From Laspinema palackyanum D2a (lineage in GTDB: Bacteria > Cyanobacteriota > Cyanobacteriia > Cyanobacteriales > Laspinemataceae), in contig JAMXFF010000009.1 in NCBI GenBank assembly GCA_025370845.1, positions 86,776 through 150,775 on the forward strand: a stretch of 64,000 nucleotides of DNA, given 5' to 3'. Below the pieces are notes generated by a model. The model made no database searches. It was not told the origin of the DNA and saw nothing but the letters and a program-made list of their open reading frames with translations. The translations under genes and the position numbers were made by a program. This document shows positions 9,065 through 18,381 of this stretch, piece by piece (position 1 is the stretch's first letter; each line of letters opens with the position of its first letter).

Positions 9065-9240
9065 ATTAACTTTTCTCTTCAATACTCCTCAAGACAAGGG
9101 AAGGTCTTGTCCCGACGGTTAACGGAACCACTTTTTTTCGGGAAATCCCGAGCAGTCCTTGGGTCCCCTTGTGTCAGAGTTCCAACGGGGATAGGGAGAT
9201 TGCTAAAATTAAGACAGATGGTGCAGAAAACGGAGAATTT

Positions 9241-11760
9241 ATGACAGAAATCAATCCGGTGACCTGGTTGCAGGAAAGAACGGCGTTGAGTCGTTTATCT
9301 GAGGCATCCTTAAGGGCGATCGCCGCAGTCATCCAGGAGCAAATCTTACCCGCAAACCAGGCGATCGCCGAACCGGGAAAAACCCCCACCGGATTCTACA
9401 TCCTTCTTCAAGGACAGTTACAAACTTCCTTGAAAAATGCCCCCCGTTCCTCCGGTGAATTGGGTCCGGGTTGCACGATTAACCTCCGAGAATTACTCTT
9501 AGACCAACCGCCAGAACAGACGATTTCCACCGTCACCGAATCTAAATTCTGGTTTGTCCCCGGGGACCAAGTTCAAGAATTAGTCCGGCAATACCCAGAA
9601 ATCACCCAAACTTTGAACCGACAACTCGCCCAAGAACTTGCCGAGGTGTCGAGTGCGCTGACTTATGAACAAGAACGACAAGATGCTTTACGCCCCTATC
9701 TTGTTACGAAAGCAAAACGGGGAATTGTGGGCAGAAGTCGCTATGCCAAACGTCTCAGGCAGCAGATTAGAGAGGCGGGTTCTGATAGGCGATCGGTCTA
9801 TATTTTCGGGGAACCGGGATTAGAAAAAGATAATATGGCCGCCCTGATTCACTATGGTTCCCCCCACCGTCGGCAACCGATTGTCAAAATCAACTGTGGA
9901 ATTCTCCAAAAAGGGGGGGCCGAACTTTTTGGACGGGCGGGCGGGAAACCGGGACTGATCGAATGGTTGGGGGAAGGAACCCTGGTTTTAAACAACATTG
10001 ACGAACTGCCGGAGGAACTGGTTGAGGCGATCGCCACCCTGTTAAAAACCTCCACTTATACACCCGTCACCCGAGAAGGGGACAGTCCCGCCCCGCCTAA
10101 ATCCACCCGCGCCAAAATTCTAGCGATCGCAGAAAAACATCTTCCGGCGATCGCCCCTCATCTGGACCAAACCCTCAAAGTTCCTCCCCTGCGAGTCCGA
10201 AAAGCCGACATTAGCGCTCAAGTCGAGTATTATATTAGCTTGTACTGTCGCGCCAAAGGTCTGAGCAAACCCAAACTCACCCCAGAAGCCCTTCGTCGCC
10301 TGCAATCTTATGATTTTCCCGGCAATATTCGGGAGTTGCAAAACTTAGTAGAACGGGCGATCGTCCAGTCAGGTTGCGCCCAAGAATTAACGGAAGAAAT
10401 TTTCTGGCCCACCCAAGGGAAGAAAAAGCAATTTCGCTTCAATTTACTGAATGCTTATCCCAAATTGCGCCATTTTCTTCGCAGTCCTTGGTGGCCCGAT
10501 CGCATTAACTATGGCTTCACCGTTGTTGCCTTTGCCCTCGTCGTTGCCATCTTATTTCTCGGTCCGCAAACCCGCGATCGCAACTTTGCCCTCAACTTCT
10601 TTTGGGCCTGGTGGTGGCCATTAGTCCTATTCGCCTTTCCCTTTGTCGGTCGCTTGTGGTGTGCAGTGTGTCCCTTCATGATTTATGGAGAAATCACCCA
10701 AAAAATCTCCGAAAAATTATTAAAACATAACCTCAAACCCTGGCCCCGACAGCAAGCGGAAAAATGGGGCGGATGGTTCCTCTTTGGCTTATTTACTTTA
10801 ATTTTCCTCTGGGAAGAACTCTGGCATTTAGAAAATACTGCCTATCTTTCCGCCTGGTTACTCCTCTTAATCACTGCCGGGGCGATGATTTGTTCAGCCA
10901 TCTTTGAACGGCGGTTTTGGTGTCGCTACCTCTGTCCCATTGGCGGTATGAATGGACTGTTTGCCAAACTTTCCATGACCGAATTAAGAGCACAACAGGG
11001 AACCTGTTCCGCCGAATGCACCACCTATCAATGTTATAAAGGCGGTCCCCAAAAAGGGGAAGGACTGGAAACCAATGGCTGTCCCCTCTATTCTCATCCG
11101 GCGCAATTAGAAGATAACCGGGATTGTGTTTTATGCATGACCTGTTTAAAAGCCTGTCCCCATCGGTCTGTTGAATTCAACTTACGACCGCCGGGAATTG
11201 ATTTGTGGACCACTCATCAGCCACGGTCCTATGAAGTTGCTTTGTTACTGTTACTTTTAGGGGGAATCTTTCTGCATCGATTGCCCGAGATTAATGCAGT
11301 CCTCGGATTAGGCATTGATTTAAGCCAATTTTGGCCCCATTTGGGATTGTCCCTAGGCGCATTAGGGGTTCCGGGGGCAGTTGTGTTAGTGGCGGGGGCA
11401 GTCATTGCCCAACTGAACCGCACCTTCAAATCCAAACCCTTTGTCCAATTAGCTTATGGATATTTGCCCTTAGTTTTAGGGGGAAGTTTAGCTCATTATT
11501 TGCGCTTGGGATTGGGAGAAGCGGGACGGATTTTACCCGTTACCTTTGCCACCTTTGGGTTAAGTGGGGAAGGGTTGCCCGTGTGGATTGCCCATCCCGC
11601 AGTGATTGCCTTTGTGCAGGGAACCACCCTCATTGCTGCCGTAGGGTTCAGTATTCTGTTAACCCAAAAAATTGGTCGAGAGCCCCTGCGATCGCTGCTT
11701 CCCCAACATTTAGCTACCCTCGGATTAGCTTTGGGGATGTGGGTTATTATCGTTGGGTAA
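9241..11760 (+). CDS. Fusion: cNMP-binding-like domain + degenerate sigma54-activator AAA domain + membrane NapH/NosR-like 4Fe-4S module
   Basis: An 839-residue protein. Residues about 1-145 resemble a Crp-type cyclic-nucleotide-binding domain (GFYILLQGQLQTSL). Residues about 160-395 align with the sigma54-interaction AAA+ domain (NCGILQKGGAELFG, VPPLRVRKADI, FPGNIRELQNLVERA), but Walker A reads GEPGLEKD, Walker B reads LVLNNIDE where LFLDEI is expected, and the GAFTGA loop and a C-terminal Fis HTH are absent. From about 420 there are several membrane helices with CAVCPF, CRYLCP and a CVLCMTCLKACP ferredoxin cluster, as in NapH/NosR/CcoG-type proteins. It is probably a redox or ligand sensor in the membrane rather than a transcription activator. 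The ATG at 9241 has GGAG upstream; a TTG at 9169 is less likely. Confidence 0.85.
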   Translation: MTEINPVTWLQERTALSRLSEASLRAIAAVIQEQILPANQAIAEPGKTPTGFYILLQGQLQTSLKNAPRSSGELGPGCTINLRELLLDQPPEQTISTVTESKFWFVPGDQVQELVRQYPEITQTLNRQLAQELAEVSSALTYEQERQDALRPYLVTKAKRGIVGRSRYAKRLRQQIREAGSDRRSVYIFGEPGLEKDNMAALIHYGSPHRRQPIVKINCGILQKGGAELFGRAGGKPGLIEWLGEGTLVLNNIDELPEELVEAIATLLKTSTYTPVTREGDSPAPPKSTRAKILAIAEKHLPAIAPHLDQTLKVPPLRVRKADISAQVEYYISLYCRAKGLSKPKLTPEALRRLQSYDFPGNIRELQNLVERAIVQSGCAQELTEEIFWPTQGKKKQFRFNLLNAYPKLRHFLRSPWWPDRINYGFTVVAFALVVAILFLGPQTRDRNFALNFFWAWWWPLVLFAFPFVGRLWCAVCPFMIYGEITQKISEKLLKHNLKPWPRQQAEKWGGWFLFGLFTLIFLWEELWHLENTAYLSAWLLLLITAGAMICSAIFERRFWCRYLCPIGGMNGLFAKLSMTELRAQQGTCSAECTTYQCYKGGPQKGEGLETNGCPLYSHPAQLEDNRDCVLCMTCLKACPHRSVEFNLRPPGIDLWTTHQPRSYEVALLLLLLGGIFLHRLPEINAVLGLGIDLSQFWPHLGLSLGALGVPGAVVLVAGAVIAQLNRTFKSKPFVQLAYGYLPLVLGGSLAHYLRLGLGEAGRILPVTFATFGLSGEGLPVWIAHPAVIAFVQGTTLIAAVGFSILLTQKIGREPLRSLLPQHLATLGLALGMWVIIVG

Positions 11761-11823: not shown

Positions 11824-12921
11824 GTGCTCGATAGTCTCATTAAAATTACCGTGATCGGCGTCGGGGGTGGCGGGTGTAATGCCATCAACCGGATGATTGC
11901 CAGTGATCTGTCTGGGGTAGAATTTGTCGGGATCAACACCGATGCTAGAGCGTTAGCTCAATGCCGTGCCGATCGCCGCATTCAAATCGGGCAGAAACTC
12001 ACCCAGGGATTAGGAACCGGGGGAAATCCCCTCATCGGACAAAAAGCGGCGGAAGATGCCAGAAGTCAAATTGCCTCCGCGATGGAAGGGAGTGATTTAG
12101 TCTTTATTACCGCAGGGATGGGTGGGGGAACCGGCACTGGGGCCACTCCAATTGTCGCGGAAATTGCCAAACAACAAGGGGCACTCACCATTGGGGTCTT
12201 GACTCGTCCCTTTGCTTTTGAGGGGAAACGGCGCAGTCATCTTGCCGAGGAAGCGATTACGGCATTACAGACTCGCTTGGATACCGCGATCGCCGTTCCG
12301 AATGAGAAATTGTTGTCCGTGATTTCTGACAATATGCCGGTTCAGGATGCCTTTGGGGTGGCGGATGATATTCTGCGCCAAGGGGTACAGGGGATTTCCG
12401 ATTTAATTGTGATTCCCGGGGTGGTGAATGTGGATTTTGCCGACGTGCGATCGGTGATGAGTCGCGCCGGAACTGCTTTACTGGGGATCGGAATTGGTCA
12501 AGGACAATCTCGCGCTAGACAAGCGGCGATTTCAGCCATGTCTTCTCCCTTTTTAGATTCTTCGATTAACGGGGCTAAAGGGGTTGTTTTTAACATCACC
12601 TGCGGCATGGATCTCACCTTACATGAAGTGAATGTAGCAGCGGCAGAAGTCTATAACGTGGTGGATCCGGATGCGAATATTATTTTTGGGGCGGTGATTG
12701 ACGATCGCCTGCATGGAGAGATGAGAATGACCTTAATCGCCACCGGATTTTCCAATGAACCGCAGGTTTCTCTCCCTCAAACCCGGGTAGTTCCGACTCC
12801 CCCTCCTCAATCGCGGGTTGCCAAACCTCCGACTCCCACACCTCAACCGGAGATACCGCCTCCAAGTTGGCCCGGATTGGACCTTCCTGATTTTTTCCCA
12901 CCCCGGCGATCGCCTAGGTAG
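11824..12921 (+). CDS. ftsZ: FtsZ, tubulin-like cell-division GTPase (short-N-terminus form, possible second paralogue)
   Basis: FtsZ polymerises with GTP into the division ring. Clear signatures: [13 protein letters not shown] at the N-terminus, the tubulin signature [12 protein letters not shown], the T7-loop [11 protein letters not shown] with its catalytic Asp, and [21 protein letters not shown] at the end of the core. The C-terminus has a Pro-rich linker and [11 protein letters not shown], resembling the conserved C-terminal peptide. The start is GTG at 11824 behind AGGAG; no in-frame ATG exists between it and the preceding stop. At 365 residues it lacks the N-terminal extension common in cyanobacterial FtsZ and departs from it at conserved places (for example FNITCGMD). 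It sits 63 bp after the iron-sulfur fusion gene, not next to ftsQ, so it may be a paralogue. Confidence 0.9.
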
Positions 12922-13112: not shown

Positions 13113-13952
13113 TCATACGAGAGCAGTGTCGTCATGGGCGTAACGACGATAGAGGAAGTCGAGGGCTTCGTTGCGTAAGTCGTAGTATTCTGACTGTTCT
13201 ATGAGTTGGGCACGATCGCGGGGCCGGGGGAAGGGTAAGTCTAGGATTTCGCCAATGCGCGCGGCGGGGCCGTTGGTCATCATGACGAGGCGATCGCCCA
13301 GGAAGAGGGCTTCGTCGATATCATGGGTAATCATCAGGATGGTGACTTTGTGATCGGCCCAGATTCGTAAGAGTTCTTCTTGGAGTTCTTCCCGGGTGAT
13401 GGGATCGAGGGCGCCGAAGGGTTCGTCGAGAATGAGAACTTTGGGGCGCACCGCCAAGGCGCGGGCGATGGAGACTCGTTGTTTCATGCCCCCGGAGAGT
13501 TCTTTGGGTTTTTTGTCAGCGGCGTCACTCAATCCGACGAGTTCCAGATGTTCTCGCACGATCGCCACTTTCTCCCGTTGTTTGAGTTTGGGAAAGACGG
13601 AGTTGACTGCCAGGAAGATATTCTCGTAGGCAGTTAACCAGGGGAGGAGGGCGTAGTTTTGGAAGACCACCATGCGATCGGGACCGGGTTCTTGAATCCG
13701 TTGCCCTTCGAGGAGCACTACTCCTTCACTGGGTTGACGGAAGCCGGACACCATATCTAGGAGGGTCGATTTGCCACAGCCGGAGTGACCAATCAGGCAA
13801 ATAAATTCTCCTTCGCGGATGGTGAGTTGGATGTTATCGAGAACGGGATAGGGACCTTCTGGGGTGGCATAGGTTTTACTGAGACCATCAATGACGAGGT
13901 AGGAGTCATTAGTGCCTTGGGGATAGCTGGTGGAGGTGGTTAGGGTTTGCAT
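13113..13952 (-). CDS. nrtD: Nitrate/nitrite ABC transporter ATP-binding subunit NrtD
   Basis: One of the two ATPases that drive nitrate/nitrite import through NrtB. Its 279 residues are a single ABC domain: Walker A GHSGCGKST (about 55-63), Q-loop FQNYALLPW, signature LSGGMKQRVSIARAL, Walker B VLILDEPFGALD and switch His in ITHDIDEAL. It is the last gene of the minus-strand order nrtA-B-C-D and differs from NrtC in lacking the C-terminal NrtA-like domain. It lies 74 bp after nrtC, in a gap containing a short tandem repeat. Expression should follow the NtcA promoter upstream of nrtA. Confidence 0.95.
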   Translation of the reverse strand: MQTLTTSTSYPQGTNDSYLVIDGLSKTYATPEGPYPVLDNIQLTIREGEFICLIGHSGCGKSTLLDMVSGFRQPSEGVVLLEGQRIQEPGPDRMVVFQNYALLPWLTAYENIFLAVNSVFPKLKQREKVAIVREHLELVGLSDAADKKPKELSGGMKQRVSIARALAVRPKVLILDEPFGALDPITREELQEELLRIWADHKVTILMITHDIDEALFLGDRLVMMTNGPAARIGEILDLPFPRPRDRAQLIEQSEYYDLRNEALDFLYRRYAHDDTALV

Positions 13953-13964
13953 GGGTTAATAGGG

Positions 13965-14000
13965 AAGGCAAAAGGCAAAAGGCAAAAGACAAAAGGCAAC
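13965..14000. repeat. Heptamer tandem repeat (AAAAGGC)n between nrtC and nrtD
   Basis: About five copies of a 7-bp AAAAGGC unit in the 74-bp spacer between nrtC and nrtD. It would lie within the operon mRNA. Confidence 0.75.
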
Positions 14001-14026
14001 GCTTGCGGAAATACAGCGCTTCGGGG

Positions 14027-16072
14027 TTAGGCGGCGGACATTTCTAGGGAAGCTAGGTTGAGATCGATTTCTTTGATGGTTAGGTTGGTTTTGATTTGAA
14101 GTTGTTCTAGGTAGTGGATGGGATCGTCGGGGTTGAAGATGGCCCCGTCGAAGAGAATGATGGGTTGGCGATCGCGGCCTAGATCCATCATGTTTAACCC
14201 CTGGGCGGCTTGGGAGAAGAGGTCTACGCGACGGACGCGATCGAGGACCTCAATCCAGTTGCGGGGGAAGGGGGCGATGCCCCATCGGGCCATTTGGGTG
14301 AGAATCCACAGGGCTTCGGTGCGATCGGGACAGTTAGTTTTGTCGAAGAAGAATTGGTGATAACGGGCAATGGGTTCGGGTTTACCAATGCCTTTGTTAT
14401 AGGCGTCGATGAAGCCCGGACGGGTGTAAATGGGATCGGATCCGATGTACTTGGGACGACAGATGAGGTCTAAAACTTCTTCCCGATGACGCATATCGTC
14501 ACAGTATTCGCAGGCTTCGAGAAGGGCCTGGATCAGGGCGAGATGGGTGTTGGGGTGGGCTTTAGCCCAGTCTTCCCGCACTCCCAGGACTTTTTCGCAA
14601 TGACCGGGCCAGATTTCTGGGTCGGTGGCCATAACGAAGCCGATGCCTTCGTGGACGGCGCGGGAGTTCCAGGGTTCGCCGACACAGTAGCCATCGATGT
14701 TGCCCGCTTTGAGGTTGGGGATCATTTGCGCGGGGGGGATCATCACTAGGTCCACATCGCGATCGGGGTCGATGTCCGCCGAGGCCAGCCAGTAGCGTAG
14801 GATCAGGTTGTGCATGGAGGTCGGATGCACCACCCCGAGGGTGAGTCGTCGGTCAGGATCGGCAGCGATGAAGCCTTTGAGGTCGGCGAGGGTCCGGATG
14901 CCCTCGTCGTAGAAGTGACGATGAAAGGTGATAGCGTTGCCGTTGCGCGAGAGGGTCATGCCCGTGACCACGGGTAGGGGGGAATGGTCTTGACGACCGA
15001 GGGTCATGCCCAGGGGCATTCCGGCGGTCATTTGGGCAGCGTCGAGGCGTTGTTCTCGAATGCCCGACTCGATCGCGCCCCAACTGGGTTCACGACTGAG
15101 GGTAACTTGGGTTAGGCCATGTTTTTGGAAGAACCCTAGTTCTTTCGCCACCACGAGGGGGGCGCAGTCGGTGAGGGGGATGAAGCCGAGGTTGAGGTTG
15201 ACTTTTTCTAAGCCTTCTAAGCCGTTTTCGTGGACTTGGATGAGTTGAGGTTGAGGTTGGGGTTGGGGTTGGGGTTGGCTTTGGCGTTTCTTGGCCCGTC
15301 GCTGTTGGTTGAGGAAATAGACAATCTCGTTGCGGAGACTGTAGTAGTGGGGATCTTTGACGGCGGAGACATGGGTGCGGGGACGGTCTATGGGAACATC
15401 AAGAATTTGTCCGACGTAGGATCCCGGCCCGTTGGTGAGGAGAACCACGCGATCGCTCAAAAGAAGGGCTTCATCGACATCATGGGTGACCATGATACAG
15501 GTGACCTGGCTTTCCTCACAGATATGCATCAGTTGTTCTTGCAGTCCCCCTCGGGTGAGGGCATCTAGGGCCCCAAAGGGTTCATCGAGGAGGAGGAGTT
15601 TGGGTCGGATGGCTAGGGCCCTAGCGATCGCCACCCGTTGTTTCATGCCCCCAGAGAGGTGGGCGGGGCGTTTATGGGCGGCATGACGCAGGCCCACGAG
15701 GTCGATGTGATGTTCGATGATACCCCGTTGTTCTCCTTTGGGGCGATCGCCCATAGCGGACTGCACAGCTAGGGCGATGTTTTCCCGCACAGTGAGCCAG
15801 GGCAGGAGAGAATAGTTTTGAAAGACCACCATGCGATCGGGTCCCGGTTCCGTTACCTGGCGACCTTCTAAAATGATGCCCCCTCGGGTGGGTTGATCCA
15901 GTCCGGCAATTAGGTTTAAGAGGGTTGATTTACCACAGCCGGAATGACCCACTAAGGAGATAAATTCGCCTTTACGAATCTTGAGTTCAATGTTACTCAG
16001 AGCAACATAAGTGCCTCCATTGGGGAGATTAAAAACTCTTTCGATATGGTCAACTTCAGCAAAAATAGACAT
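14027..16072 (-). CDS. nrtC: Nitrate/nitrite ABC transporter ATPase with regulatory domain NrtC
   Basis: The 681 residues combine an N-terminal ABC ATPase (Walker A GHSGCGKST at about 42-50, LSGGMKQRVAIARAL, LLLDEPFGALD) with a C-terminal domain from about 294 that resembles the substrate-binding protein NrtA (LGFIPLTDCAPLVVAKELGFF, YCVGEPWNSRAV). In characterised cyanobacteria this C-terminal domain mediates inhibition of nitrate uptake when ammonium is present. The domains are joined by a repetitive Gln-Pro linker (QPQPQPQPQPQ). It lies between nrtB (62 bp upstream) and nrtD. Full length with no broken motifs. Confidence 0.96.
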   Translation of the reverse strand: MSIFAEVDHIERVFNLPNGGTYVALSNIELKIRKGEFISLVGHSGCGKSTLLNLIAGLDQPTRGGIILEGRQVTEPGPDRMVVFQNYSLLPWLTVRENIALAVQSAMGDRPKGEQRGIIEHHIDLVGLRHAAHKRPAHLSGGMKQRVAIARALAIRPKLLLLDEPFGALDALTRGGLQEQLMHICEESQVTCIMVTHDVDEALLLSDRVVLLTNGPGSYVGQILDVPIDRPRTHVSAVKDPHYYSLRNEIVYFLNQQRRAKKRQSQPQPQPQPQPQLIQVHENGLEGLEKVNLNLGFIPLTDCAPLVVAKELGFFQKHGLTQVTLSREPSWGAIESGIREQRLDAAQMTAGMPLGMTLGRQDHSPLPVVTGMTLSRNGNAITFHRHFYDEGIRTLADLKGFIAADPDRRLTLGVVHPTSMHNLILRYWLASADIDPDRDVDLVMIPPAQMIPNLKAGNIDGYCVGEPWNSRAVHEGIGFVMATDPEIWPGHCEKVLGVREDWAKAHPNTHLALIQALLEACEYCDDMRHREEVLDLICRPKYIGSDPIYTRPGFIDAYNKGIGKPEPIARYHQFFFDKTNCPDRTEALWILTQMARWGIAPFPRNWIEVLDRVRRVDLFSQAAQGLNMMDLGRDRQPIILFDGAIFNPDDPIHYLEQLQIKTNLTIKEIDLNLASLEMSAA

Positions 16073-16134
16073 GGATATTAAGCAGGAGTAGAGGACAACA
16101 AAAGAAGATTAAAGAAGACCCACCCTTACTGAGC

Positions 16135-16971
16135 CTAGTCTTCAGACACGACCAAACTCGCCAAGAAACTAATCAACTTATCCAGAAGTAGTCCCACAAT
16201 TCCTACATAAATTACGGCCAGGATAATGTCACTCATCCGGGAACTATTCCAGGCATCCCAGATAAAGAAGCCAATCCCCACACCGCCAATCAACATTTCT
16301 GCTGCAATAATTGCTAACCAAGATAAGCCAATGCCAATCTTCAGTCCGGTAAAAATATAGGGAACCGTTGCCGGAAAGAGGATTTTGAAGAAGTAGGTCT
16401 TGCGATCGAGTCGTAGCACTCGCGACACATTATTATAATCTTGAGGAATTTGCAGGACTCCCTCCGTAGTATTGATAATAATCGGCCAAATTGCTGTAAT
16501 AAAAATTACAAAAATCGCAGAAGGATTCGCCCGTTCAAAACCCGCCAGGGAAATTGGCAGCCAAGCCAACGGGGGAATGGTTCTCAAGATTTGAAAAATG
16601 GGGTCTAATGCCCGATACATCAAGCGGTTTGTCCCCACCAGAATCCCTAAAGAGACCCCTACAATCACCGCCAGGGAGAACCCTAAAGCAACCCGTTGTA
16701 AACTGGTCAAAATTTGCCAAAATAGACCTTTGTCGATTCCACCATGATCAAAGAACGGGTTAATAATCAATTCCCAGGTTTCTGAGACCGTGCGAATCGG
16801 ACCAGGCAGGGTCGAATCCGAAACCGATGTAAACGCCTGCCAAATGACTAGAAAAATCAGAATAGCAACCGTAGAAGGAATAAGCTCTTTCCCCTTCTTG
16901 AGAGCGGCTTTAAACCACTGTTGGGGTATAAATCGGAACTTTTTGCGTCGGGGATAGGTTGGAGAAGTCAT
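16135..16971 (-). CDS. nrtB: Nitrate/nitrite ABC transporter permease NrtB
   Basis: The integral-membrane channel of the NrtABCD importer. It has 278 residues with about six hydrophobic segments. The ABC permease coupling motif is visible as the E-A-A-like loop preceding GLSWLAIIAAEMLIGG, and GFSLAVIVGVSLGILVGTN is typical of NrtB/SsuC permeases. The start ATG has no strong ribosome site. The gap to nrtA (111 bp) is largely filled by a 9-bp G-rich minisatellite, which would sit in the transcript between the two reading frames. Confidence 0.95.
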   Translation of the reverse strand: MTSPTYPRRKKFRFIPQQWFKAALKKGKELIPSTVAILIFLVIWQAFTSVSDSTLPGPIRTVSETWELIINPFFDHGGIDKGLFWQILTSLQRVALGFSLAVIVGVSLGILVGTNRLMYRALDPIFQILRTIPPLAWLPISLAGFERANPSAIFVIFITAIWPIIINTTEGVLQIPQDYNNVSRVLRLDRKTYFFKILFPATVPYIFTGLKIGIGLSWLAIIAAEMLIGGVGIGFFIWDAWNSSRMSDIILAVIYVGIVGLLLDKLISFLASLVVSED

Positions 16972-16979
16972 AGTTTTTA

Positions 16980-17056
16980 TGGGGGAGAAGGGAATAGGGA
17001 AGATGGGGGAGATGGGGAAGATGGGGAAGATGGGGAAGATGGGGAAGATGGGGAAG
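16980..17056. repeat. G-rich minisatellite (ATGGGGAAG)n, copy 2, between nrtA and nrtB
   Basis: At least six near-perfect 9-bp units of ATGGGGAAG on the plus strand. The operon mRNA carries the C-rich complement. It is the longest of the three arrays around the nrt operon. Confidence 0.85.
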
Positions 17057-17082
17057 TGGCGCGCCCTCTTGTGGGGCTGAAC

Positions 17083-18381
17083 CTAAATTCGGGTAATCTC
17101 TAAACTCTTGAGGTAATCTAGGGGTTTTTCTGGGTCAAAGACTTTGCCATCAAAGAAGGTTTCAGGTCCACGGGAAGAACTTTTAGGAATCATGCTTCCC
17201 TGACCAATGGCATCTGCCGCTTCTTGCCAGAGGTCGTCCCGATTGACTCGGTTCACCATGCCCTGAATATCTGCATCTGGCGGGAGATAACCCCAACGGA
17301 TATTTTCCGTGAGGAACCAGAGTTCATGACTCTTGAAGGGATAAGAGGCATTATCCCGCCAATATTTCTGCATCAACTGCGGCTGTTCTTTCGGCTCACG
17401 GATACCATCGTTATAGATGCCCCGAGAGCGATCGATAATGTCTTCAAAGGGGACATTAAACCAAGACCTGCGGGAGAGAATCTGACACATCTCCTCCACA
17501 TTCTCCGGTTCGCTACACCAGATTTGTGCCTCTAGGGTTCCCATCAAGAGGGCCCGGGCCGCTTTGGGATTTTGGTCAACCCAATCTGCCCGCATTCCTA
17601 AAGACTTCTCGGGATGGTCTTGCCAGAGTTGCCCTGTGGTTAAGGCGTTGTAACCAATCTCTTGGTTCACCAATTGCAGGGGCCAGGGTTCTCCGACACA
17701 GAAAGCATCCATGTTGCCAACCCGCATATTGGCTACCATCTGCGGGGGTGGGACGACAATGGTTGAGATCTCTTGGTCTGGGTCAATGCCTCCGGCTGCT
17801 AGCCAGTAGCGAATCCAGCAGTCATGGGTTCCCCCAGGAAAGGTCATGGCGGCCCGTAAGTCTGCACCGGCAGCCCGTCGTTCAGCAAACCGTTCTTTGA
17901 GGGGGCTACTGTCCACTCCAACCTCTAAATCGCGGTAGTCATTGGAGAGACAAATCCCCTGACCATTCACATTCAGACGCGCCAAAATATACATCGGCAC
18001 CGGCCGTCCATCGGTGACAATTCCTTCCGATAATAGGTAAGGCATGGGGGTGAGAATGTGGGCACCATCAATGCCGCCGCCCCCAGAACCGAGGACTAAA
18101 TTGTCACGGGTTGTTCCCCAGGAGGCTTGTTTTTCAAGGGAGACATCTGTCATCCCATACTTAGCAAAAAAGCCTTTTTCCCGTGCAATAATCAGGGGAG
18201 CGGAGTCCGTTAGGGCAATAAATCCTAGTCTTACTGTTGGGGTTTCTGGAGCATCGGCGGGGTCAATTTCAACCTCAACTTGGGCTTGGTCATTACTCTG
18301 TCCACAGCTATGGAGGAACAAGCTTCCCGCTGTTGCTGCAGCGGCTGTAATTAGGAATTTGCGACGGTTAAATTGGGGCAT
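17083..18381 (-). CDS. nrtA: Nitrate/nitrite-binding lipoprotein NrtA
   Basis: The periplasmic, membrane-tethered binding protein that captures nitrate and nitrite for NrtBCD. Its 432 residues begin MPQFNRRKFLITAAAATAGS with a twin-arginine RRKFL motif, and a lipobox-like LHSC follows, so it is both a candidate Tat substrate and a lipoprotein. The mature part shows LGFIALTDSAPLIIAREKGFFAKYG, GGTHDCWIRYWLAAGGIDPD and DAFCVGEPWPLQLV, characteristic of the NrtA/CmpA family. CmpA (bicarbonate) is the main alternative, but the NtcA promoter supports nitrate. First gene of the operon, with a leader of about 90 nt if the promoter call is right. Confidence 0.94.
   Translation of the reverse strand: MPQFNRRKFLITAAAATAGSLFLHSCGQSNDQAQVEVEIDPADAPETPTVRLGFIALTDSAPLIIAREKGFFAKYGMTDVSLEKQASWGTTRDNLVLGSGGGGIDGAHILTPMPYLLSEGIVTDGRPVPMYILARLNVNGQGICLSNDYRDLEVGVDSSPLKERFAERRAAGADLRAAMTFPGGTHDCWIRYWLAAGGIDPDQEISTIVVPPPQMVANMRVGNMDAFCVGEPWPLQLVNQEIGYNALTTGQLWQDHPEKSLGMRADWVDQNPKAARALLMGTLEAQIWCSEPENVEEMCQILSRRSWFNVPFEDIIDRSRGIYNDGIREPKEQPQLMQKYWRDNASYPFKSHELWFLTENIRWGYLPPDADIQGMVNRVNRDDLWQEAADAIGQGSMIPKSSSRGPETFFDGKVFDPEKPLDYLKSLEITRI

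Follow-up and report, generated by a model that had tools for sequence, protein, structure and literature searches.

What does a protein do that carries the AAA+ domain of a transcriptional activator between a Crp-like fold and a membrane-bound iron-sulphur protein? The question is raised by a gene of Laspinema palackyanum D2a, which lies in a stretch of 64,000 nucleotides (contig JAMXFF010000009.1, positions 86,776 to 150,775; the whole stretch is called the window). The gene occupies window positions 9241-11760 on the forward strand as a single unbroken frame of 839 codons, from an ATG at 9241 to a TAA at 11760, and an alternative TTG start at 9169 is possible. Judged from its sequence, it could well encode a membrane electron-transfer polyferredoxin related in type to NapH, NosR and CcoG, the N-terminal part being a regulatory head without ATPase activity, a reading to which we give about an even chance. 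The original prediction, made from the DNA letters alone, had placed a dead AAA domain, akin to those of the bacterial enhancer-binding proteins (bEBPs), with a Crp-type fold before it and a NapH-like membrane polyferredoxin after it, and this architecture is supported.

The gene, its parts and its relatives

Matches above the curated Pfam cut-offs are found in the window protein for cNMP_binding (residues 36-118), Sigma54_activat (162-279), AAA_lid_14 (318-385) and, in two stretches, Fer4_5. The parts are as follows.

9241..11760, + strand: whole gene, comprising a cNMP-like fold, a pseudo-AAA+ domain, a NapH-like polyferredoxin and a C-terminal membrane part (frame, Pfam, unbroken relatives)
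9346..9594, + strand: cNMP_binding fold, residues 36-118, with a degenerate phosphate-binding cassette (PF00027, 42.4 bits; match to the cyclic nucleotide-binding domain of MloK1 weak, E 0.00086)
9595..9714, + strand: linker, residues 119-158, in part a long helix (in a poor AlphaFold2 model)
9724..10077, + strand: shortened AAA+ core derived from Sigma54_activat, residues 162-279 (PF00158, 47.7 bits; VpsR, E 1.4e-21)
9808..9834, + strand: Walker A, GEPGLEKDN, residues 190-198 (motif reading)
9925..9957, + strand: site of the deleted L1/GAFTGA loop, LFGRAGGKPGL, residues 229-239 (motif reading)
9982..10008, + strand: Walker B site, LVLNNIDEL, residues 248-256, Asp and Glu both replaced by Asn (motif reading)
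10192..10395, + strand: AAA lid, residues 318-385, with the sensor II-like FPGNIRELQN (AAA_lid_14, PF25601, 56.6 bits)
10483..11190, + strand: NapH/NosR-like membrane iron-sulphur core, residues 415-650 (NCBIfam napH_ model, 55.9 bits, below the cut-off of 213; Fer4_5)
10660..10671, + strand: membrane cysteine motif 1, C474-x2-C477-P
10921..10935, + strand: membrane cysteine motif 2, C561-x3-C565-P
11005..11157, + strand: eight-cysteine ferredoxin part (C589, C593, C598, C614, C629, C632, C635, C639), two [4Fe-4S] clusters by motif
11191..11757, + strand: extra, largely hydrophobic C-terminal part, residues 651-839 (conserved residues; shared with standalone Deinococcus and haloarchaeon relatives)

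All 12 cysteines of the core are kept in 148 of the 149 cores that are covered to at least 90%, and the sole exception (L110) diverges from the family beyond residue 628, where its 6.2-kb contig is nearly at an end. The NapH/MauN model TIGR02163 (NCBIfam) matches 18 of the 19 members of alignment A3, and the NosR model matches 10 of the 19, weakly. The original prediction erred on two details, in that the first membrane cysteine motif is CxxCP rather than CxxxCP and that the protein does not end at the ferredoxin part but continues for about 190 residues. Within this extension E665, Y739, L742, P743, E760 and G762 are found in all 147 rows that cover it. The extended core is shared at 29% by a standalone protein of a Deinococcus plasmid and at 25% by a standalone Halobaculum protein, which is missing several of the cysteines. 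An AlphaFold2 model was built on the window protein and 39 relatives and was poor (mean predicted local distance difference test score 62.2, predicted template modelling score 0.41), with the P-loop and iron-sulphur regions below 50.

Relatives are found in 73 of 292 sampled Cyanobacteriota genomes with the window protein as query (E <= 1e-20), and a more diverged relative, a clade B protein as defined below, has matches in 103 of 386 genomes (E 1e-60). A contig scan with two core motifs gave 583 pattern matches, at least 566 of them confirmed; the best 80 were kept and have cyanobacterial titles throughout, which says nothing about other phyla because the ranking favours near relatives. The nearest named full-length relatives among the matches listed are from Oscillatoria sp. 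HE19RPO (93%) and Laspinema sp. D2d (92%). Two of 72,556 plasmid records, from Pseudanabaena galeata and Aulosira laxa, both cyanobacterial, cover at least 80% of the window protein, and none of 50,697 phage records matches the clade B query. The phylum range of the three-part fusion was judged within Cyanobacteriota and these plasmid and phage records, and no description of the fusion was found in a literature search mostly limited to non-subscription papers. Two papers on cyanobacteria and sulfide contain no mention of cyclic nucleotide, 4Fe-4S or cysK. The gene is present in one copy in the window genome (7.41 Mb, 116 contigs), where Fer4_5 matches fall exclusively within it. Given its relatives in 73 of the 292 genomes, the gene is not a sequencing artefact, and given that the unbroken frame recurs in many genomes, it is not two merged frames, a doubt raised with the original prediction; this recurrence, with the purifying selection described below, excludes such an artefact.

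Removal of proteins identical over the core region reduced 183 loci to 153. The 150 distinct family proteins were sorted into clades A (118, among them the window protein), B (12) and C (20); two distant outgroups were set aside, and the Deinococcus and haloarchaeal proteins were excluded from the motif tallies. A core tree of 59 rows, from which the short L059 and the names lost in that removal were dropped, supports clade C at 100/100 and clade B at 89/59; two A-type rows (L060 and L062) are unplaced, rooting with two outgroups failed on long branches, and clade A does not resolve as one clade there. Second, more diverged A-type copies (L193 and L194) occur in genomes G066 and G054, one with the odd P-loop GEPSSGKDN, and a clade B copy (L057:3036-5758) is broken into two overlapping frames.

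The AAA+ domain and the Crp-like fold

The predicted kinship of the AAA part with bEBPs is borne out by its Sigma54_activat and AAA_lid_14 matches and by FPGNIRELQN. Its best relative of solved structure is VpsR, which is itself without GAFTGA in the aligned stretch. An AAA tree was built from 19 clade A, 11 clade B and 10 clade C rows with four of five fetched bEBPs, leaving out PrpR, which did not match the GAFTGA pattern used, and the broken L057. Clade C is nested within A, and the 40 family rows are separated from the four bEBPs with support of 100/98, which fits a single capture of the bEBP domain, four outgroups being few.

The GAFTGA loop, by which bEBPs contact sigma54, is absent from the window protein as predicted; the span from LFG to GT is 17 residues, compared with 25 in one plasmid-borne bEBP, and GAFTGA-like strings occur in 0 of the 150 distinct family proteins, so that no homologue was found to retain the loop. 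The altered Walker A sequence was also read correctly, although its Lys-Asp pair is near normal: given that bEBP P-loops commonly end GKE or GKD, the real change is the replacement of Gly by Glu before the lysine. This lysine (Lys196) is retained in all 148 readable family proteins. At the preceding position, 102 of 118 clade A proteins have Glu or Asp (16 have Gly) and 17 of 19 clade C proteins have Glu (2 have Gly), such that the last P-loop glycine has become acidic in 119 of 137 proteins of the two clades; the clade B P-loop is GxGKT in 11 of 11 readable proteins. The Walker B site reads LVLNNIDEL, as had been quoted. Its glutamate is found in none of the 148 readable family proteins, and the two acid positions are NN in 113 of 118 clade A proteins; the aspartate is kept in 7 of 11 clade B and 13 of 19 clade C proteins. 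The AAA part is missing in L189 (clade C) and incomplete in the broken L057. It is a safe prediction from these motifs that the AAA domain does not hydrolyse ATP in any of the three clades, and to this extent the proposed non-catalytic module stands, but clade B, with its canonical P-loop, may still bind ATP. The lid residue nine before PP is Pro in the window protein and Arg in 92 of 117 motif-matching clade A proteins, so a general loss of the arginine finger is not claimed.

The degenerate domain is maintained. Ratios of nonsynonymous to synonymous substitution rates, each against L063 and L064, are 0.107 and 0.174 for the AAA part, 0.025 and 0.046 for the core, 0.275 and 0.227 for the Crp-like part, and 0.112 and 0.086 for the C-terminal part; in the AAA part, a third comparison had reached saturation. 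By these ratios the AAA part is under purifying selection, its altered P-loop kept rather than decaying.

The apparatus of sigma54-dependent transcription was sought in the protein and in the genome. The 12 Pfam families that match the window protein at E <= 1 include no Fis or Crp helix-turn-helix (HTH) family, in keeping with the predicted lack of a Fis domain. A check for rpoN in the window genome gave no match to PF04552 or PF04963 at E <= 0.001. The seven other PF00158 hits in that genome look by eye like Clp-, RarA- and ChlD-type proteins, so that the search revealed no further bEBP there. Of the 292 genomes in the phylum sample, nine match PF04552 at E 0.001 and two of them reach the family cut-off: one match is an RpoN-box-like frame of 207 residues in G125, which also carries a family gene, and the other is by eye a sigma70-like protein. 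The G125 frame (L033:1462-2082, - strand), in a genome of the same order, has a sigma54 DNA-binding domain at 62 bits with an RpoN-box-like end, and no match to the sigma54 core-binding domain was found in that genome.

The fold of the predicted Crp-type sensor is present, the PF00027 score lying above the cut-off of 27.5, but the phosphate-binding cassette GE...R is lost, FGE...PRSA of MloK1 being aligned to NLR...PEQT, and the commonest forms of the cassette tallied across the family are unlike those of a cyclic-nucleotide binder. Four of 117 clade A proteins lack the fold, as do 2 of 12 clade B proteins (one of them the broken frame) and 17 of 20 clade C proteins; the other three in clade C are read as frame read-through at 16% identity, so that the fold is in effect missing in all 20. 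The term Crp-type sensor must be weakened, because the cassette is lost and clade C is without the domain.

Gene neighbourhoods and the link to slr1529

A conserved clade A operon was considered and rejected, given that the 101 loci compared, made up of the window and L043-L142 (with L043-L062 belonging mostly to the diverged clades), show nothing general. The commonest neighbours are LtrA-like genes (24), a DUF4351 gene (22) and transaldolase-like genes (20), others being fewer, and several clusters of similar count are shadow frames of the polyferredoxin gene itself.

In 7 of 12 clade B loci, a cysK of like orientation is found no more than 0.6 kb away, compared with a cysK within 8 kb in 2 of 79 clade A loci. 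Eight further A-type loci were counted separately; two of them have cysK, one copy lying 1.2 kb away in opposite orientation and the other, 35% identical, 4.3 kb away. In a recount of 77 control loci, 74 had at least 0.6 kb downstream and 54 had at least 5 kb on both sides. Hdr-like genes occur in two clade B loci, a nifH-like gene 1.8 kb away in one, and a D1 gene directly upstream in one. The Hdr-like genes (HdrA-, HdrB- and HdrC-like, in L045 and L046, two genomes of one genus) stand beside the clade B gene, with HdrB at 204 bits, below its family cut-off. Within about 20 kb, the Pseudanabaena plasmid holds genes for a sulfide:quinone oxidoreductase (SQR)-like protein (98 bits on the type III SQR model, cut-off 525), ArsR, two PsbA, a Rieske (PetC-like) protein, DsrE and rhodanese. 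The plasmid islands of Pseudanabaena and Aulosira (L216, L217) both carry psbA, petC-like, rhodanese, nitronate monooxygenase-like and cysK genes, the first having the SQR-like, ArsR and DsrE genes in addition, and they look like mobile sulfide or low-oxygen gene sets.

In clade C, short-chain dehydrogenase/reductase and Fur-family genes flank the polyferredoxin gene in 6 of 20 loci, with the Fur-family gene next downstream, and znuABC adjoins it in 2 of 20. The Fur-family protein is not typable as Zur, Fur or PerR, all scores being below the cut-offs. Among standalone relatives, that of Natronorubrum lies between a metal-dependent regulator, a metal cation transporter and P-type ATPases, that of Natrinema pallidum adjoins a nickel-type transporter, and those of Halobaculum and Halocatena have chrA 2.6 kb and arsB 3.3 kb away, respectively. 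The Deinococcus gene overlaps a gene for a His-rich protein by 4 bases, and heavy-metal ATPases are encoded at distances of about 10 and 14 kb. A short match in Chlorohelix sits among sulphur-transfer genes.

In the window itself, a second ftsZ (11824-12921, + strand, 365 residues, 410 bits) starts 63 bases past the polyferredoxin gene; the other ftsZ of the genome lies on a separate contig (464 bits, 68% identical to the second). Laspinema D2d and Oscillatoria HE19RPO share this gene pair (96-97%), which was found in no other fetched locus; many of those loci have short flanks. A nitrate-transport-like operon (13113-18381, - strand), with two ATPase genes, a permease and a substrate-binding protein named by eye, lies 1.35 kb from the gene, and its nearest gene has no match above 45% in the other fetched loci.

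One locus (L197) links the family to earlier work. Its gene order, read by eye, has pyrG and a leuD-like gene on one side and a desaturase, pdxH-like, ScpA-like and ffh genes on the other, which we take to be the order in Synechocystis PCC 6803, where the family gene would be slr1529 (ntrX). This order (pyrG, desaturase, pdxH-like, ffh) points to slr1529 as the Synechocystis orthologue. One family relative is annotated as a nitrogen assimilation regulatory protein, the name that slr1529 also bears; annotation as a transcription factor had been foreseen. In the extracts consulted of three studies, slr1529 is treated as a nitrogen regulator, a locus number or a putative regulator (PMC4182526, PMC3516471, PMC5318462). 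These extracts give an expression ratio of 0.29 after 3 uM copper (PMC4182526) and lower values in an iron-deprivation table (-0.74, -1.17, -0.07, -0.35 and -0.67, the column heads lying outside the extract; PMC3516471), and show the deletion mutant to be one of the six whose metabolism had changed most by 72 h and not one of the four that grew poorly (PMC5318462).

Proposed function and comparison with known systems

In the polyferredoxin reading, the eight-cysteine part would hold two [4Fe-4S] clusters on the cytoplasmic side, and these would exchange electrons with a cytoplasmic carrier, for which ferredoxin is the obvious candidate. The CxxCP and CxxxCP sites could relay electrons to the membrane, either to the plastoquinone pool or to a metal or sulphur substrate. 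The head would sense a cytoplasmic state and set assembly or electron flow; in clades A and C it would be a rigid scaffold, and in clade B it may have kept the ability to sense ATP. More loosely, the work might be metal or sulphur redox housekeeping, because clade B is found with cysK and sulfide-type genes and part of clade C with Fur-family genes or znuABC, and because some standalone relatives lie near metal genes and slr1529 shifts with copper and iron supply.

Several observations count against this assignment. No assay of a family protein and no partner was found. The window protein scores 55.9 bits on the NapH model against a cut-off of 213.05, solved structures match the ferredoxin part alone and weakly (best E 0.038 and 0.034), and the AlphaFold2 model is too poor to show topology or pocket. 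All 149 relatives have the core, a count that is partly built in because they were found either by motifs of the core or by similarity to the whole protein. For clade A, to which the window protein belongs and in which no conserved operon is seen, the metal or sulphur link comes from the expression of slr1529, whose changes belong to broad stress responses, and from the other clades. Of the 20 clade C loci, 5 have as neighbour a gene that by eye is glutamylcyclotransferase-like, and in 7 none of the probed genes adjoins, two of these 7 having a 32% Fur-family match 1.1-1.6 kb upstream. Unrelated genes separate the Deinococcus relative from its metal cluster, and around the Halostagnicola and Natrinema DC36 relatives the annotation shows no metal gene within 5 kb in either direction.

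A more specific proposal, tentative and on the unlikely side, is that a bEBP motor was captured in cyanobacteria and lost hydrolysis, becoming an oligomeric pseudo-AAA+ gate on the electron flow of the polyferredoxin, perhaps ATP-sensing in clade B. The slr1529 product "NtrX" would then be a redox protein rather than a gene regulator.

It is also possible, though doubtful, that the protein is a pure redox sensor, in which the clusters report the redox, iron or oxygen state at the membrane and the AAA-Crp head binds a partner (a transcription factor or an enzyme) with no net electron flow. The head modules are regulator modules by Pfam, a regulatory role is credited to NosR in the extract seen (PMC8951191), and the slr1529 deletion changes metabolism without poor growth. 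Against this, the 12-cysteine core and the extra membrane part are kept where the head is lost or eroded, as in clade C (subject to the search bias), and head-less relatives exist in Deinococcus and haloarchaea.

Somewhat less probable still is a special case of the polyferredoxin reading, a CcoG-like metal reductase, in which the core reduces Cu(II) or Fe(III) in the service of metal handling and the head tunes it to need. Precedent is given by CcoG, described in the extract seen as a membrane ferredoxin-like cupric reductase that reduces Cu(II) in the cytosol (PMC8475189). The Natronorubrum and Deinococcus neighbourhoods, the Fur-family and znuABC neighbours of clade C and the copper and iron responses of slr1529 agree with it, but metal neighbours occur in a minority of loci, no metal genes are common beside clade A, the likeness to CcoG is one of description, and no report of reductase activity in the family of the window protein was found in the literature searched.

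A membrane-anchored transcription factor acting with sigma70 is very improbable. VpsR works with sigma70 and is the best solved AAA match, and relatives are annotated as nitrogen regulators, yet no Fis or Crp HTH family was found in the protein, which has lost both Walker B acids. A decaying or chimeric gene, arising by accidental fusion or sequencing artefact, deserves almost no credence, since degenerate motifs alone favour it and the frame is unbroken in many genomes, with AAA ratios of about 0.1-0.2 and a degenerate P-loop that is itself conserved.

The outcome matters because a protein in about one quarter of the sampled phylum genomes, a Synechocystis-type genome included, is named as a regulator of nitrogen transcription. 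Should it instead be a regulated membrane electron carrier, it would add a redox branch near photosynthesis, sulphur and metal metabolism, and would be a case of an AAA+ motor turned regulatory scaffold. The slr1529 deletion mutant reported in the extract of PMC5318462 makes the idea testable soon.

Compared with the bEBPs (NtrC, NorR, PspF and VpsR), the family shares Sigma54_activat and AAA_lid_14 homology, but the window protein has no GAFTGA, no Walker B acids and no detected DNA-binding domain, and its genome has no rpoN match. With NapH/MauN-type proteins (TIGR02163) it has in common the membrane CxxCP/CxxxCP pair and two ferredoxin-type cysteine sets, to which it adds the N-terminal Crp-AAA head and the C-terminal part. 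NosR, an electron donor for which the extract of PMC8951191 suggests the regulatory role, has the polyferredoxin core in common with the window protein, whose N-terminus is different, with no flavin mononucleotide-binding family among its listed Pfam matches. CcoG is likened to it as a membrane-bound ferredoxin-like protein.

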